A stretch of DNA of 64,000 bases from Delphinus delphis. Taxonomy: Eukaryota > Chordata > Mammalia > Artiodactyla > Delphinidae. The position numbers and the translations under genes were made by a program. Below, in pieces: positions 1,204 through 62,560 of the stretch (its first letter is position 1; every line of letters begins with the position of its first letter). Below the pieces are notes generated by a model that was not told where the DNA came from, searched no databases, and worked only from the letters and a program-made list of their open reading frames with translations. Location of the stretch: positions 37,592,451 through 37,656,450 of the forward strand of contig NC_082694.2 in the NCBI RefSeq assembly GCF_949987515.2. Direction: 5' to 3'.

Positions 1204-1459
1204 CTGTAACAAAAGTAAAATATAAAGTTGAAATACATTTCTTAATTCAGTCAATCCAGTTAAAAAAAATACAAACAGCCTTGCTCCTAGCTTTTTCCAA
1301 GTTTTTAAAAAAGGAGAGGCAGAATGGCCTACTCTTAAGAAACTTCCATAACTTACCTAAATTTAAATCATTATTTTTTACTAAGAAATTCTCTATTTTA
1401 CTTATGTTAATGCATATCATTATCTTCTATCATTGCATCTAAAACAATACAAAAAGAAA

Positions 1460-1741
1460 CTGAGGGACAAATATATGATATCACTTATATGTGGAATCTA
1501 AAAAAATTGGTACAAATGAACTTATTTACAAAACAGAAATAGAGTCAGAGATGTAGAAAACAAACTTATGGTTATCAAGGGGGAAGGAGGGGTGGGAGGG
1601 ATAAAATGGGAGATTGGACTTGACATATACACACTATATATAAAATAGATAATTAATAAGAACCTACTGTATAGCACAGGAAACTCGACTCAATACTCTG
1701 TAATGACCTACAGGGGAACAGAATCTAAAAATGAGTGGATA
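1460..1741 (+). mobile_element. Older L1 3'UTR fragment, left part (split by the transducing L1)
   Basis: This is 5'-truncated L1 sequence (from atatgatatcacttatatgtggaatct to the region before the L1 tail). It is interrupted after position 1741 and resumes at 9310. A weak 9-base duplication, aaaaagaaa (1451-1459 and 9399-9407), may be its target-site duplication. It served as the landing site for the younger composite insertion. Confidence 0.85.
1727..1741 (+). repeat. Outer target-site duplication, left copy
   Basis: aaaaatgagtggata, repeated at 9295-9309 with one mismatch where the copy merges with the poly(A). It is preceded by ct, giving CT|AAAA, close to the L1 endonuclease preference TT|AAAA. 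Confidence 0.85.
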
Positions 1742-1742
1742 G

Positions 1743-1753
1743 AACCAACAGGA
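1743..1753 (+). repeat. Inner duplication, left copy
   Basis: aaccaacagga directly before the L1 5' end, matched exactly at 8770-8780 right after the L1 poly(A). The flanking context here (AG|AACC) is a poor L1 endonuclease site. Confidence 0.85.
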
Positions 1754-1754
1754 G

Positions 1755-1763
1755 GATGGCGGA
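1755..1763 (+). promoter_or_regulatory. Putative YY1 site at L1 5' end
   Basis: gatggcgga contains the ATGGCGG core of a YY1 motif at the very start of the element. A YY1 site near the 5' end of human L1 is known to direct the start point of transcription; the assignment here is by motif only. Confidence 0.5.
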
Positions 1764-3127
1764 AGAGTTAAGACACGGAGATCACCTTCCTCCCCACAGA
1801 TACATCAGGAGTACATCTACACGTGGAACAACTCCTACAGAACACCTACTGAATGCTGGCAGAAGACCTCTGACCTACCAAAAGGCAAGAAACTCCCCAC
1901 GTACTTGGGTAGGGCAAAAAAAACCCCAATAAACAGAGACAAAAGAATAGGAACGGGACCTGCACCAGTGGGAAGGAGCTGTGAAGGAGGAAAAGTTTCC
2001 ACACACTAGGAAGCCCCTTTGCGGGCGGAGACTGCGGGTGGCGGACGCGGGAAGCTTCGGACATAGAGCCACGGAGGAGAGCACAACAACGGGTGCGGAG
2101 GGCAAAGTGGAGAGATTCCTGCACAGAGGATCAGTGCTTACCGGCACTCACCAGCCCGAGAGGCTTGTCTGCTCAACGGCCGGGGCGGGCGGGGCTGAGA
2201 GCTGAGGCTCCGGCTTCAGTCAGAGCGCAGGGAGAGGACTGGGGTTGGTGGCATGTACACAGCCTGCAGGGGGTTAGTGCACCATGACTAGCCAGGAGGG
2301 AGTCCGGGGAAAAGTCTGGACCTGCCGAAGAGGCAAGAGACTTCTTCCCTCTTTGTTTCCTGGTGCCCGAGGAGAGGGGATTAAGAGCGCAGCTTAAAGG
2401 AGCTCCAGAGCCAGGCGCGAGCCGCGGCTAACAGCGCAGACCCCAGAGATGGGCAAGAGATGCTAAGACTGCTGCTGCCGCCGCCAAGAAGCCTGTGTGC
2501 GAGCACAGGTCACTCTCCACACCTCCCTTCCGGGGAGCCTATGCAGCCCGCCATGCCAGGGTCCCGGGATCCAGGGACAACTTCCCCGGGAGAATGCACG
2601 GCGTGCCTCAGGCTGATGCAATGTCACGCCAGCCTCTGCCACCGCAGGCTCGCCCCGCACTCCGTACCTCTCCCTCCCTCCGGCCTAAGGGAGCCAGAGA
2701 CCCCGAATCAGTGGCTCCTTTAACCGGCGACCTACACACAGAAGCGGGGCCAAATCCAAAGCTGAGCCCCGGCAGCTGTGCAAACAAAGAAGAGAAAGGG
2801 AAATCTCTCCCAGCAGCCTCAGGAGCAGCGGATTAGATCTCCACAATCAACTTGATGCACCCTGCATCTGCAGAATACCTGAATAGACAACAAATCATCC
2901 CAAATTGAGGAGGTGGACTTGGAGAGCAAGATTTATTATTTTTTCCCCTTTTCCTCTTTTTGTTAGTGTGTACGTGTATGGTTCTGTGTGAGATTCTGTG
3001 TGTATAGCTTTGCTTTCACCATTTGTCCAAGGGTTCTATCCGTCATTTTTTTTTTTACTTTTTAAAAAAAGTTTTTTCTTAGTAATGTTTTTTAATCTTT
3101 ATTTTATCTTACTTTATTTTCTTTTAT

Positions 3128-3157
3128 CCTCTTTCTTTCTTTCTTTCTTTCTTTCTA
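3128..3157 (+). repeat. (TTTC)n simple repeat in L1 5'UTR
   Basis: Six or so uninterrupted TTTC units within the T-rich part of the L1 5'UTR. Confidence 0.85.
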
Positions 3158-3677
3158 CCTTTTCTACTTTTATTCTGAGCCGTGTGGATGAAAGGCTCTT
3201 GGTGCTTCAGCCAAGAGTCAGTGCTGTGCCACTGAGGTGGGAGAACCAACTTCAGGACGCTAGTCCACAAGAGACCTCCCAGCTCCACGTAATATCAAAC
3301 GGCAAAAATCTCCCAGAGATCTTCATCTCAACACCAACACCCAGCTTCTCTCAACAACCAGCAAGCTACAGTGCTGAACGCCCTATGCCAAACAACTACC
3401 AAAACAGGAACACAACCCCACCCATTAGCAGAGAGGCTGCCCAAAATCATAATAAGGCCACAGACACCCCAAAACGCACCACCAGACGTGGACCTACCCA
3501 CCAGAAAGGCAAGATCCAGCCTCATCCACCAGAACACAGGCACTAGTCCCCTCCACCAGCAAGCCTACACAAACTACTGAACCAACTTTAGTCACTGGGG
3601 ACAGACACCAAAAACAACGGGAACTACGAACCTGCAGCCTGCAAAAAGGAGACCTCAAACACAGTAAGATAAGCAAA

Positions 3678-4571
3678 ATGAGAAGACAGAAAAACACACA
3701 GCAGATGAAGGAGCAAGATAAAAACCCACCAGACCTAACAAATGAAGAGGAAATAGGCAGTCCACCTGAAAAAGAATTCAGAATAATGATAGTAAAAATG
3801 ATCCAAAATCTTGGAAATATAATAGAGAAAATGCAAGAAACATTTAACAAGGACCTAGAAGAACTAAAGATGAAACAAGCAATGATGAACAACACAATAA
3901 ATGAAATGAAAAATACTCTAGAAGGGATCAAGAGCAGAATAACTGAGGCAGAGAAACGGATAAGTGACCTGGAAGATAAAATAGTGGAAATAACTACTGC
4001 AGAGCAGAATAAAGAAAAAAGAATGAAAAGAACTGAGGACAGTCTCAGAGACCTCTGGGACAACATTACACGCACCAACATTCGAATTATAGGGATTCCA
4101 GAAGAAGAAGAGAAAAAGAAAAGGATGGAGAAAATATTTGAAGAGATTATAGTTGAAAACTTCCCTAATATGGGAAAGGAAACAGTTAATCAAGTCCAGG
4201 AAGCACAGAGAGTCCCATACAGGATAAATCCAAGGAGAAACACGCCAAGACACATATTAATCAAACTGTCAAAAATTAAATACAAAGAAAACATATTAAA
4301 AGCAGCAAGGGAAAAACAACAAATAACACACAAGGGACTCCCCATAAGGTTAACAGCTGATCTTTCAGCAGAAACTCTGCAAGCCAGAAGGGACTGGCAG
4401 GACATATTTAAAGTGATGAAGGAGAAAAACCTACAAACAAGATTACTCTACCCAGCAAGGATCTCATTCAGATTTGATGGAGAAATTAAAATCTTTATAG
4501 ACAAGCAAAAGCTGAGAGAGTTCAGCACCACCAAACCAGCTTTACAACAAACGCTAAAGGATCTCCTCTAG
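3678..4571 (+). CDS. L1 ORF1 protein, open reading frame intact
   Basis: A 297-residue frame, uninterrupted from ATG to TAG. It encodes the L1 RNA-binding nucleic-acid chaperone that coats the L1 transcript. Residues about 30-125 form a long, charged coiled coil with heptads (trimerisation in this family). The RRM-type domain follows, with IRIIGIPEEEE at 135-145. The C-terminal domain has PRHILIKLSK, ILKAAREKQ and LTADLSAETLQARRDW in the expected order, then LYPARISF near 257-264. It ends with LKDLL. It is somewhat shorter than the 338-residue human protein, mainly at the N-terminus. ORF2 starts 58 bases downstream. I see no frameshift, so this half may still make protein if transcribed. Confidence 0.92.
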   Translation: MRRQKNTQQMKEQDKNPPDLTNEEEIGSPPEKEFRIMIVKMIQNLGNIIEKMQETFNKDLEELKMKQAMMNNTINEMKNTLEGIKSRITEAEKRISDLEDKIVEITTAEQNKEKRMKRTEDSLRDLWDNITRTNIRIIGIPEEEEKKKRMEKIFEEIIVENFPNMGKETVNQVQEAQRVPYRINPRRNTPRHILIKLSKIKYKENILKAAREKQQITHKGLPIRLTADLSAETLQARRDWQDIFKVMKEKNLQTRLLYPARISFRFDGEIKIFIDKQKLREFSTTKPALQQTLKDLL

Positions 4572-4629
4572 GCAAGAAACACAAGAGAAGGAAAAGACCT
4601 ACAATAACAAACCCAAAACAATTAAGAAA

Positions 4630-7600
4630 ATGGGTATAGGAACATACATATCGATAATTACCTTAAATGTAAATGGATTAAATGCTCCCACCAAAAGACA
4701 TAGACTGATGAATGGATACAAAAACAAGCCCCACATATATGCCATCTACAAGAGACCCACTTCAGACCTAGAGACACATACAGACTGAAAGTGAGGGGAT
4801 GGAAAAAGATATTCCATGCAAATGGAAACCAAAAGAAAGCTGGAGTAGCAATTCTCATATCAGACAAAATAGACTTTAAAATAAAGCCTATTAGAAGAGA
4901 CAAAGAAGGACACTACATAATGATCAAGGGATCAACCCAAGAAGAAGATATAACAATTGTAAATATTTATGCACCCAACAGAGGAGCACCTCAATACATA
5001 AGGCAAATACTAACAGCCATAAGAGGGGAAATCAACAGTAACACATTCATAATAGGGACTTTAACACCCCACTTTCACCAATGGACAGATCATCCAAAAT
5101 GAAAATAAATAAGGAAACACAAGCTTTAAATGATACATTAAACAAGATGGACTTAATTGATATTTATAGGACATTCCATCCAAAAACAAAAGAATACACA
5201 TTTTTCTCAAGTGCTCATGGAACATTCTCCAGGATAGATCATATCTTGGGTTACAAATCAAGCCTTGGTATATTTAAGAAAATTGAAATTGTATCAAGTA
5301 TCTTTTCCGACCACAATGCTATGAGACTAGATATCGATTACAGGAAAAGTTCTGTAAAAAATACAAACACATGGAGGCTAAACAATACACTACTTAATAA
5401 TGAAGTGATCACTGAAGAAATCAAAGAGGAAATCAAAAAATACCTAGAAACAAGTGACAATGGAGACACAACGACCCAAAACCTATGGGATGCAGCAAAA
5501 GCAGTTCTAAGAGGGAAGTTTATAGCAATACAATCCTACCTTAAGAAACAGGAAACATCTCGAATAAACAACCTAACCTTGCACCTACAGCAATTAGAGA
5601 AAGAAGAACAAAAAACCCCCAAAGTTAGCAGAAGGAAAGAAATCATAAAGATCAGATCAGAAATAAATGAAAAACAAATGAAGGAAACGATAGCAAAGAT
5701 CAATAAAACTAAAAGCTGGCTCTTTGAAAAGATAAGCAAAATTGATAAACCATTAGCCAGACTGACCAAGAAAAAGAGGGAGAAGACTCAAATCAATAGA
5801 ATTAGCAATGAAAAAGGAGAAGTAACAACTGACACTGCAGAAATACAAAAGATCATGAGAGATTACTACAAGCAACTCTATGCCAATAAAAATGGACAAC
5901 CTGGAAGAAATGGACAAATTCTTAGAAATGCACAACCTGCCAAGACTGAATCAGGAAGAAATAGAAAATATGAACAGACCAATCACAAGCACTGAAATTG
6001 AAACTGTGATGAAAAATCTTCCAACAAACAAAAGCCCAGGACCAGATGGCTTCACAAGCAAATTCTATCAAATATTTAGAGAAGAGCTAACACCTATCCT
6101 GCTCAAACTCTTGCAAAATATAGCAGAGGGAGGAACACGCCCAAACTCATTCTAGGAGGCCACCATCACCCTGATACCAAAACCAGACAAAGATGTCACA
6201 AAGAAAGAAAACTACAGGCCAATATCACTGATGAACATAGATGCAAAAATCCTCAACAAAATTCTAGCAAACAGAATCCAACAGCACATTAAAAGGATCA
6301 TACACCATGATCAAGTGGGGTTTATTCCAGGAATGCAAGGATTCTTCAATATATGCAAATCATTCAATGTGATACACCATATTAACAAACTAAAGGATAA
6401 AAACCATATGATCACCTCCATAGATGCAGAAAAAGCTTCTGAGAAAATTCAACACCCATTTATGATAAAAACCCTCCAGAAAGTAGGCATACAGGGAACT
6501 TTCCTCAACATAATAAAGGCCATATATGACAAATCCACAGCCAACATCATCCTCAATGGTGAAAAACTGAAAGCATTTCCACTAAGATCCGGAACAAGAC
6601 AAGGTTGCCCACTCTCACCACTCTTATTCAACATAGTTTTGGAAGTTTTAGCCACAGCAATCAGAGAAGGAAAGGAAATAAAAGGAATCCAAATCAGAAA
6701 AGAAGAAGTAAAGCTCTCACTGTTTGCAGATGACATGATACTATACATAGAGAACCCTAAAGATGCTACCAGAAAACTACTAGGGCTAATCAATGAATTT
6801 GGTAAAGTAGCAGGATACAAAATTAATGCACAGAAATCTCTGGCATTCCTATACACTAATGATGAAAAATCTGAAAGTGAAATCAAGAAAACACTCCCAT
6901 TTACCATTGCAACAAAAAGAATAAAATATCTAGGAATAAACCTACCTAAGGAGACAAAAGACCTGTATGCAGAAAATTATAAGACACTGATGAAAGAAAT
7001 TAAAGATGATACAAATAGATGGAGAGATATACCATGTTTTTGGATTGGAAGAATCAACACTGTGAAAATGACTCTACTACCCAAAGCAATCTACAGATTC
7101 AATGGAATCCCTATCAAACTACCACTGGCATTTTTCATAGAACTAGAACAAAAAATTTCACAGTTTGTATGGAAACACAAAAGATCCCGAATAGCCAATG
7201 CAATCTTGAGAACGAAAAATGGAGCTGGACGCATCAGGCTCCCTGACTTCAGACTATACTACAAGGCTACAGTAATCAAGACAGTATGGTACTGGCACAA
7301 AAACAGAAATATAGATCAATGGAACAGGATAGAAAGCCCAGAGATAAACCTACGCACAGATGGTCACCTTATCTTTGATAAAGGAGGCAGGAATGTACAG
7401 TGGAGAAAGGACAGCCTCTTCAATAAGTGGTGCTGGGAAAACTCCCCAACACCATACACAAAAATAAGCTCAAAATGGATTAAAGACCTAAATATAAGGC
7501 CAGAAACTATCAAACTCTTAGAGGAAATCATAGGCAGAACACTCTATGACATAAATCACAGCAAGATCCTTTTTGACCCACCTCCTAGAGAAATGGAAAT

Positions 7601-8411
7601 AAAAACAAAAATAAACAAATGGGACCTAATGAAACTTCAAAGCTTTTGCACAGCAAAGGAAACCATAAACAAGACCAAAAGACAACCCTCAGAATGGGAG
7701 AAAATATTTGCAAATGAAGCAACTGACAAAGGATTAATCTCCAAAATTTACAAGCAGCTCATGCAGCTCAATATCAAAAAAACAAACAACGCAATCCAAA
7801 AATGGACAGAAGACCTAAATAGACATTTCTCCAAAGAAGATATACAGACTGCCAACAAACACATGAAAGAATGCTCAACATCATTAATCATTTGAGAAAT
7901 GCAAATCAAAACTACAATGAGGTATCATCTCACACCGGTCAGAATGGCCATCATCAAAAAATCTAGAAACAATAAATGCTGGAGAGGGTGTGGAGAAAAG
8001 GGAACACTCTTGTACTGCTGGTGGGAATGTGAATTGGTACAGCCACTATGTAGAACAGTATGGAGGTTCCTTAAAGAACTACAAATAGAACTACCATATG
8101 ACCCAGCAATCCCACTACTGGGCATATACCCTGAGAAAACCATAATTCAAAAAGAGTCATGTACCAAAATGTTCATTGCAGCTCTATTTACAATAGACAG
8201 GAGATGGAAACAACCTAAGTGTCCATCATCGGATGAATGGATAAAGAAGATGTGGCACATATATACAATGGAATATTACTCAGCCATAAAAAGAAACGAA
8301 ATTGAGTTATTTGTAGTGAGGTGGATGGACCTAGAGTCTGTCATACAGAGTGAAGTAAGTCAGAAAGAGAAAGACAAATACAGTATGCTAACACGTATAT
8401 ATGGAATCTAA
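4630..8411 (+). pseudogene. L1 ORF2 (endonuclease-reverse transcriptase), inactivated
   Basis: This is nearly the whole ORF2 in order, broken by five lesions. There is a 1-base deletion near 4705 (after the NVNGLNAPTKRHRL start), a 1-base deletion near 5057 within the endonuclease GDFNTP-type motif, and a 1-base gain in the A run near 5889. There is a TAG at 6153-6155 where TAT (Tyr) is expected and a TGA at 7893-7895 where AGA (Arg) is expected. Visible motifs are LQETH (near 4748), FSDHNAMRLDI (near 5305), [12 protein letters not shown] (near 6598) and the catalytic FADD of the reverse transcriptase (near 6723). An in-frame loss of about 36 bases is seen near 7437. The C-terminal Cys motif (near 7978-8031) has Tyr where the family has His. 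Few other changes are seen, so the copy is young but cannot make an active enzyme. Confidence 0.9.
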
Positions 8412-8771
8412 GAAAAAAAACTGTCATGAAGAACCTAGGGGTAAGATAGGAATAAAGACACAGACCTACTAGAGAATGGACTTGAGGATATGCGGAGGGG
8501 GAAGGGTAAGCTGGGCCAAAGTGAGAGAGTGGCACTACCAAAATGTAAAATAGATAGCTAGTGGGAAGCAGCCGCATAGCACAGGGAGATCAGCTCGGTC
8601 CTTTGTGACCTCCTATAGGGGTGGGATAGGGAGGCTGGGAGGGAGGGAGACGCAAGAGGGAAGAGATATGGGAACATATGTATATATATAACTGATTGAC
8701 TTTGTTATAAAGCAGAAACTAACACACCATTGTAAAGCAATTATACTCCAATAAAGATGTAAAAAAAAAAA
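8412..8771 (+). mobile_element. L1 3'UTR and first poly(A)
   Basis: About 350 bases with the G-rich tract typical of L1 3'UTRs (near 8490-8510). It ends ctccaataaagatgt and an A run at 8761-8771. The AATAAA at 8750-8755 lies only about 5 bases before the A run. A weak or bypassed signal at this point would favour read-through, as proposed for the transduction. Confidence 0.88.
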
Positions 8772-8780
8772 CCAACAGGA

Positions 8781-9285
8781 AGTTGATTTAGCCTCTCTTA
8801 GATTAATTTGGACATTAAAAAACTGCTCACTAAGGGTTGGGAAATCAGAAAGTAAAATGTGGAAAATGTGCTTACTTTTTGTACAGGGACTGCTGTTGTA
8901 CTCTGATATCTGCTCTTCCCTTCTTATATAGTAATAGAATCCCCTATTTTTAAGCTGGGCACAGGGCCCTCCAAAATATTTCTCAGTTAGGACTATGTTA
9001 CTAAATTCTGGCCCAATCCATGTCAAGGGAAGAGTCTTTGAAGTGTCAGAGAGAAGTCCCTTCTTCCCACTTTCCTCCTTCCTGCTGACTGGAATGTGAA
9101 TATGATAGCTTGAACTCAAGCAGCCATCTTGGGCCATGAGGTGGGAGCCACAGGTTGAGGATGTGGAGCAAGAAGATAGAAGGAGCCTGGGTTCCAGATG
9201 ATTGTGGAGCTGCCACACCAGTCCTGATTACTTATCTCAAAACGTTGTTTATATAAGAAAAATAAACTTCTATCTTGTTTAAGCT
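8781..9285 (+). mobile_element. Putative 3'-transduced segment
   Basis: About 505 bases that are not L1, placed between the L1 poly(A) and a second poly(A) (9286-9300). AATAAA at 9261-9266 stands 19 bases before the tail, the normal spacing for cleavage and polyadenylation. The end (aataaacttctatcttgtttaag) resembles the end of an old dispersed mammalian repeat whose family I cannot name with confidence. The likely origin is the 3' flank of the source L1. An independent retrocopy is the alternative. Confidence 0.7.
9261..9266 (+). promoter_or_regulatory. Polyadenylation signal AATAAA of the transduced segment
   Basis: Canonical hexamer 19 bases before the poly(A) run at 9286-9300. Confidence 0.8.
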
Positions 9286-9294
9286 AAAAAAAAA

Positions 9295-9309
9295 AAAAAA
9301 GAGTGGATA
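9295..9309 (+). repeat. Outer target-site duplication, right copy
   Basis: aaaaaagagtggata, the partner of 1727-1741 with one mismatch. Confidence 0.85.
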
Positions 9310-9398
9310 TATGTATATGTATAACTGATTCACTTTGCTGTACAGCAGAAACTAACACAACATTGTATATCAACTATACTCCAATAAAAATTAAAAAA
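9310..9398 (+). mobile_element. Older L1 3'UTR fragment, right part
   Basis: It continues the fragment broken at 1741: tatgtatatgtataactgatt through ctatactccaataaaaatt, then poly(A) to about 9403. Joining 1741 to 9310 gives a continuous L1 3' end. Confidence 0.85.
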
Positions 9399-9402
9399 AA
9401 AA

Positions 9403-62289: not shown

Positions 62290-62560
62290 GGGCTTCCCTA
62301 GTGGTGCAGTGGTTGGGAGTCTGCCTGCCGATGCAGGGGACGCGGGTTTGTGCCCCGGTCCCGGAGGATCCCGCGTGCCGCAGAGCGGCTGGGCCTGTGA
62401 GCCGCAGCTGGGCCTGTGAGCCATGGCCGCGCCTGTGAGCCATGGCCGCGCCTGTGAGCCATGGCCGCTGAGCCTGCACGTCCGGAGCCTGTGCTCCGCA
62501 GCGGGAGAGGCCGCAACAGTGAGAGGCCCGCGTACCGCAAAAAATAAATAAATAAATAAA
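62290..62560 (+). mobile_element. CHR SINE, short form with internal expansion (second of three)
   Basis: Short-form body enlarged by a 19-base tandem repeat (see next entry). Its tail is AAAT-rich, like its neighbours, instead of a pure A run. Confidence 0.9.
62389..62468 (+). repeat. Minisatellite-like expansion inside a SINE
   Basis: The unit gcctgtgagccatggccgc (19 bases) is present about three times, after two further diverged units (gggcctgtgagccgcagct). Confidence 0.9.

Follow-up and report, generated by a model that had tools for sequence, protein, structure and literature searches.

A full-length L1 flanked on both sides by donor sequence: probable 'parentless' transduction from a site that is empty in the same assembly

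The unit at positions 1727-9309 of the window (the whole stretch of 64,000 nucleotides analysed here) is a full-length L1 on the plus strand that carries extra sequence at both ends and is surrounded by a 15-bp duplication with one mismatch. We hold with high confidence that a single retrotransposition placed it there, the copied RNA having been a read-through transcript of an L1 at another locus, C19, that included donor flank on both sides, 9 to 12 nt at the 5′ end and 505 nt at the 3′ end. The best reading of the unit is a 'parentless' transduction, that is, one whose donor allele is absent from the assembly. Its parts are as follows.

1441-1726, plus strand: left part of an older, truncated L1 3′ end (the target), 75 to 77% identical to further old L1 tails of the window
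1727-1741, plus strand: left outer target-site duplication, AAAAATGAGTGGATA, at the site CT|AAAA
1742-1750, plus strand: short 5′ donor flank, a G followed by the left copy of the donor duplication, AACCAACA; it reaches 1753 if GGA is counted
1751-8760, plus strand: L1 body, full-length with a defective ORF2; 28 of 39 listed relatives have their alignment start at 1751, and Pfam gives L1 ORF1 domains and RVT_1
1753-1762, plus strand: YY1-like site, here AGGATGGCGG, with one change relative to AAGATGGCGG
3678-4571, plus strand: ORF1, 297 amino acids, open, with three Pfam L1 ORF1 domains (PF02994, PF17490, and PF17489)
4630-8411, plus strand: ORF2 region, broken by comparison with seven relatives
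8750-8771, plus strand: the L1's own poly(A) signal (8750-8755) and poly(A) (8761-8771), read from the sequence
8770-8780, plus strand: right copy of the donor duplication, AACCAACAGGA, whose first two A's are common to the poly(A)
8781-9285, plus strand: transduced donor 3′ flank of 505 bases, 97% match to C19:21824987-21825491 over bases 3-505
9058-9285 (start approximate), plus strand: part of the tail lying in an old dispersed repeat, which supplies AATAAA at 9261-9266
9286-9300, plus strand: second poly(A), untemplated; the donor reads GCTACTGTAG at that point
9295-9309, plus strand: right outer target-site duplication, AAAAAAGAGTGGATA, one mismatch against 1727-1741
9310-9402, plus strand: remainder of the older L1 3′ end, 88% match to 8676-8770

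This layout is that of an L1 3′ transduction: beyond the L1's own signal and poly(A) lies extra sequence that has another signal and another poly(A), and one target-site duplication encloses the whole. The outer endonuclease site, CT|AAAA, is L1-like, being one step from the consensus TT|AAAA, while that of the inner pair is degenerate at best. An earlier, sequence-only reading of this DNA had given the same coordinates, both poly(A) tracts, the 505 extra bases, and AATAAA, all of which were recovered when we recomputed them. It had also described an inner pair, AACCAACAGGA, around the L1. The two copies (1743-1753 and 8770-8780) are indeed exact, and they are the sole exact copies on either strand of the 64 kb, but the full 11 bp is not secure as a duplication. 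The secure common part is probably 6 to 8 bp, with 11 as the maximum, because two A's of the right copy belong equally to the poly(A) and because GGA (1751-1753) probably also opens the L1 itself, besides being donor sequence. The pair is nevertheless not due to chance, since the donor locus reads AGAACCAACAGGA directly ahead of the tail, exactly as the window does at 1741-1753.

The landing site can be restored. When the flanks are joined without the insert, they run gaplessly across the junction along an old L1 3′ end at 27646-27286 of the window, and with a 4-base gap near the junction along a second old L1 tail at 49934-49663. By alignment, then, 1441-1726 and 9310-9402 once formed a single stretch, belonging to an older, truncated L1 3′ end. 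The outer pair proposed earlier (one mismatch, CT|AAAA) is therefore real, as its flanks continue along other old L1 3′ ends, and the restored empty target bears out the idea that the copy landed inside an older L1 tail. Farther upstream, the minus strand shows an exon-like stretch at 1151-1204, in which 54 open bases (by eye DPHAEEFEDKEWTFVIEN) stand between an acceptor-like TTTTGTTACAG and GTAAGC; the L1 may be intronic, in antisense orientation to a gene. The window also holds a tRNA-derived SINE with poly(A) at 176-380, presumably of a type found in cetaceans and their kin, and a tandem array at 62393-62468 (four copies of a 19-base unit, 91%) that by eye resembles part of a SINE body.

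The tail at 8781-9285 has one other near-full-length match in the window's own assembly, on the same strand of C19 (40 of 205 candidates scored in the full-tail search). Among the candidates scored there were 38 further matches, at 69 to 85% identity, all in the second half of the tail. Its unique first 280 bases occur at the same two places, together with three short, weak fragments at 79 to 82% (5 of 5 candidates scored). The donor's left flank, 300 bases upstream, has a single match in the assembly (1 of 1 candidate), and its right flank is found at C19 and in the window only, apart from those three fragments. Beyond the point where the tail ends, the C19 sequence continues without poly(A), within a dispersed repeat at about C19:21825261-21825531 that, by its look, may be an old LTR. 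Viral contigs scanned for exact copies of the tail end gave 0 hits. The extra sequence maps to another locus, where it has no poly(A).

The order of parts at C19 is ...TCAAGAACCAACAGGAAATTG..., with a single copy of AACCAACAGGA, no L1 alongside, and no poly(A). The letters ahead of the tail there, TCAAGAACCAACAGGA, equal one copy of the inner pair, preceded by G as at window position 1742, and the whole of 1742-1750, GAACCAACA, is identical to C19:21824973-21824981, so that the unit shows the hallmark of a short 5′ transduction as well. Because C19 has the G at 1742, we take that base as donor sequence; the alternative of a cap-derived G was considered and rejected on the same ground. C19 is evidently the original locus and now an empty site, since its sequence runs on past the tail's end, lacks poly(A), and holds only one copy of the duplication. 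The sequence-only reading had proposed looking for a locus where gaaccaacaggaagttgatt continues into unrelated flanks, with an L1 or an empty site, and C19 from 21824973 onward is such a locus, with an empty site. It had also placed the source L1 between copies of the inner-pair sequence; the order at C19 and its emptiness are as this predicts, but the donor L1 itself was not found.

The absence of that donor L1 counts against the single-event account. No source L1 lies directly upstream of the C19 locus in the assembly. Within 9.5 kb upstream and 6 kb downstream of that locus, nothing resembles the window's L1 more closely by than a 71-base piece, at 80%, that ends 2.4 kb upstream. A left-flank search (1 of 1 candidate) showed no filled second allele of C19 on another contig of the assembly. 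The earlier reading had also suggested checking whether other L1s carry the same tail; in this one assembly no sibling transduction came to light (40 of 205 full-tail and 5 of 5 unique-half candidates scored). The missing parent lowers the level of proof, yet the class of L1 3′ transduction still stands, since most transductions in one dog set likewise have no visible parent: for 24 of 27 dimorphic dog L1s with transductions, the 50 bp around the source sequence hold no L1, according to the available text of PMC12458276.

The course of events that we propose would have begun with the insertion of an ancestral L1 at C19:21824973, which, to judge from the inner pair, would have duplicated 8 to 11 bp (AACCAACA to AACCAACAGGA). 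This donor L1 would have lacked its first bases, its internal promoter setting the start some 10 to 17 nt ahead of the YY1-like site, and its transcript would have begun in the neighbouring DNA, about one base before the left duplication. The polymerase would then have passed the L1's own poly(A) signal, and the RNA would have ended 505 bases farther on, after the AATAAA of the old repeat, as the donor sequence indicates. Such read-through of the first poly(A) had been suggested from the sequence, and the C19 donor flank and the untemplated second poly(A) now bear it out. L1 proteins would have copied the RNA into the older L1 tail on C12 at CT|AAAA, leaving the outer 15-bp duplication, of which both copies and the restored target are seen. 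The donor L1 allele would have been lost from the population or would be missing from the assembly, the donor site itself being visibly empty, and later decay would have broken ORF2.

Several lines of evidence converge on this single event, namely the donor locus, whose parts stand in the order predicted and whose site is empty, the occurrence of the tail's unique half at two places besides the three weak fragments and of the donor left flank once, the identity of the left 9 to 12 bases (G included) with donor sequence, the untemplated poly(A), and the restored target. The spacing of 13 nt to GATGG also fits, since five of eight relatives (one of the five weakly) show spacings of 3 to 18 nt. 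Against the account stand, besides the unseen donor L1, the one change in the YY1-like site and a start that does not fall on a pyrimidine/purine pair (A|G or A|A at the donor). Our confidence is not higher because of a tension in the apparent ages (see below) and because of the rarity of 5′ transductions, which are thought to make up less than 0.1% of human L1-Ta insertions (PMC6425141, in the text available).

The start of the transcript can be considered in the light of related elements. A search of the assembly for the 5′ end of this L1 (40 of 10157 candidates scored) listed 39 relatives, of which 29 were cut out as loci. The L1 begins with GGAAG.TGG in 22 of the 29, and AAGATGGCGG is exact in 21. 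In the window, the start lies 13 nt ahead of the YY1-like GATGGCGG, and the spacing to GATGG is 13 nt from the outer duplication and 4 nt from AACCAACA. Of eight relatives, the five with a readable duplication have corresponding spacings to GATGG of 16, 18, 9, 3, and 17 nt, the 18 coming from a weak pair. The pairs of L013, L022, and L035 are clear, that of L028 is an 11-base pair 60 bases past the L1 end, and that of L015 is weak and A/T-rich; left out were L014 (5′ truncated), L020 (3′ end outside the fetched stretch), and L016 (no clear pair). YY1 is known to direct the start of L1 transcription near the 5′ end, upstream of the YY1 site (PMC10620060 and PMC2912911), with a start peak in mouse 15 bp upstream of that site (PMC10620060 / PMC2912911), and human L1s that begin at positions 6 to 25 and keep the YY1 site frequently have extra 5′ bases, ascribed to upstream starts (PMC2912911), so far as the available text of these sources goes. 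The most economical reading gives the donor L1 a short head and puts its start, measured from the YY1-like site, 9 nt outside the L1. This agrees with the earlier proposal of a transcript start about 12 bases upstream, the left 9 to 12 bases with their G being donor sequence.

The heads ahead of GATGGCGG differ among the relatives L012-L040: GGCTTCCGGGAA occurs in 8 of 29, and CTAGAGGGGAA and GGACGAGGGGAA in 3 of 29 each (one error allowed). They look as if they had been exchanged between lineages. If the start is measured from the YY1-like site, the first 10 to 17 nt of this L1 family might be unfixed, headless copies gaining a new head from flanking DNA and some of these heads becoming lineage markers. 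We offer this as a tentative idea that stands somewhat below even chances; the sharing of one head by 8 of the 29 relatives and of two others by 3 each hints at it. Were it true, the window's L1 would be a step caught in the act, with its new head traced to a locus. A relative designated L028/L048 (C12:59456281 onward) has a possible duplication, AATAATTATCT, 60 bases past the L1 end and beyond non-A sequence, and may carry a short 3′ transduction too.

The principal alternative supposes two insertions: a C19 transcript (GAACCAACAGGA...poly(A)) would first have left a 520-base retrocopy, and an ordinary L1 would then have entered at the 5′ edge of that copy, duplicating AACCAACAGGA. The letters at the junctions fit this equally well, and the empty C19 site would require neither a lost allele nor a rare 5′ transduction. 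The L1, however, would have to hit within about 1 base of the 5′ end of a 520-base target (some 1 to 3 chances in 520), in the same orientation, and the 13-nt spacing between the outer duplication and GATGG would be a coincidence. We regard two insertions as improbable, though less so than any other rival. The sequence-only reading had held that the inner AG|AACC context speaks against a nested insertion; this argument is symmetric and does not discriminate, because a templated G makes the donor site AG|AACC as well if the pair starts there. When one substitution beside the poly(A) is allowed, the donor gains TC|AAGA and the window AT|AGAA, the latter giving two insertions a degenerate site of their own, and both motifs fall in degenerate classes used in the available part of PMC3649969. 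Short duplications of full-length L1s that were extended in this way, allowing one substitution, then fit TT/AAAA better (PMC2912911, same limitation). The right copies of both pairs may differ from the left ones by a single change to A beside the poly(A) (9295-9300 and 8767-8771), T to A in the outer pair and, if the donor site is TC|AAGA, G to A in the inner pair. Instead of arising by later mutation, these changes may stem from priming with a mismatch or from trimming at the nick.

The apparent ages are the weak point of the single-event account. Across 512 aligned sites (counted from 8772), 8 substitutions separate the tail from the donor (0.78% per branch; the 95% range for a count of 8 is 3.5 to 15.8), and a 2-base and a 4-base indel set them apart as well. 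Of 3417 sites compared in the L1 body, 80 carry private substitutions (2.3%), none falling in CpG by the test used, and seven relatives span 63 to 105 (7 of the 8 fetched relatives were used, L047 being left out for a large internal deletion). The L1 looks 2 to 3 times older than the tail. With equal rates and joint arrival, about 20 tail-donor differences would be expected against the 8 observed, which is rejected (P = 6e-4); if all 8 changes fell on the tail, as they would with a constrained donor locus, 11.5 would be expected (P = 0.17). A long active prehistory of the donor lineage does not explain the gap well, since selection has left no visible trace on the branch leading to the window's L1 (50 replacement and 16 silent changes, against 373:130 for the seven relatives pooled). 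The dating leans against an L1 younger than the tail, which two insertions would need; equal ages, however, likewise fail the equal-rate test.

Two further alternatives can be regarded as most improbable. In the first, the L1 arrived before the tail, which was later copied into the L1's poly(A), its own duplication being hidden among the A's. Poly(A) is a favoured target of the L1 endonuclease, and this order fits the apparent ages (2.3% for the L1 and 0.78% for the tail), but it leaves unexplained, and is already contradicted by, the left copy: GAACCAACA at 1742-1750 is C19 sequence, and a chance match of 9 to 10 letters at a fixed place has a probability of about 1 to 4 in a million. Later insertion of the tail into the L1 poly(A) was accordingly rejected. 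The second, in which reverse transcription of an unrelated C19 RNA switched template to L1 RNA in one event, draws on L1 chimeras by template switching or RNA ligation (described in the available text of PMC13174262), yet it accounts neither for a second AACCAACA beyond the L1 nor for an RNA starting exactly there.

Returning to the single retrotransposition, the element itself has decayed. Compared with the seven relatives, ORF2 has three single-base frame shifts, two premature stops, and one 36-base in-frame deletion, and one ORF2 piece still matches RVT_1, the Pfam reverse transcriptase domain. The closest kin among the candidates scored reach 90% at the 5′ end (40 of 10157) and 93% in ORF2 (40 of 9106), and no near-identical L1 was seen among them; a recently active donor would so have left no close kin in the assembly within those two sets. 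Outside CpG, the 5′ UTR of the window's L1 differs from those of its relatives by 7.6% (median), and the relatives differ from one another by 6.3%. One relative, L046 (C21), has an insertion of about 220 bases near the point that matches window position 6244.

The unit is a clear but ordinary instance of a known process, and the general picture of L1 movement is unchanged. Its value is that one insertion records both ends of a donor insertion missing from the assembly, so that the absent allele can be placed within a few bases, and that it offers a test case, in an L1 family of neither primates nor rodents, for start sites measured from the promoter. A search of the literature by title and abstract start (LINE-1, transduction, cetacean) found no whale L1 transduction, and we make no claim that none has been published. 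The comparisons that follow hold for the available text of the sources named. One close parallel, documented in human cells, is a de novo L1 whose donor is missing from the reference and which carries a 10-nt 5′ and a 44-nt 3′ transduction (PMC6425141). Both elements are full-length, carry both donor flanks, an internal poly(A), and their own duplications, and have a donor missing from the reference or assembly; ours differs in being old and found in a genome assembly, in its 505-nt 3′ piece, and in having a donor represented by an empty site only. In the 'parentless' transductions of dogs (PMC12458276 and PMC13103737), the transduced sequence likewise maps to a locus without an adjoining L1, and a dimorphic L1 was later identified behind one such case (PMC13103737). 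The dog cases are recent and dimorphic, whereas here the donor duplication is kept at both ends of the copy and marks the donor insertion point. Human full-length L1s with a YY1 site (PMC2912911) also have extra bases between duplication and L1 start, ascribed to an upstream start; in the present case, by contrast, the source of the extra bases is identified.
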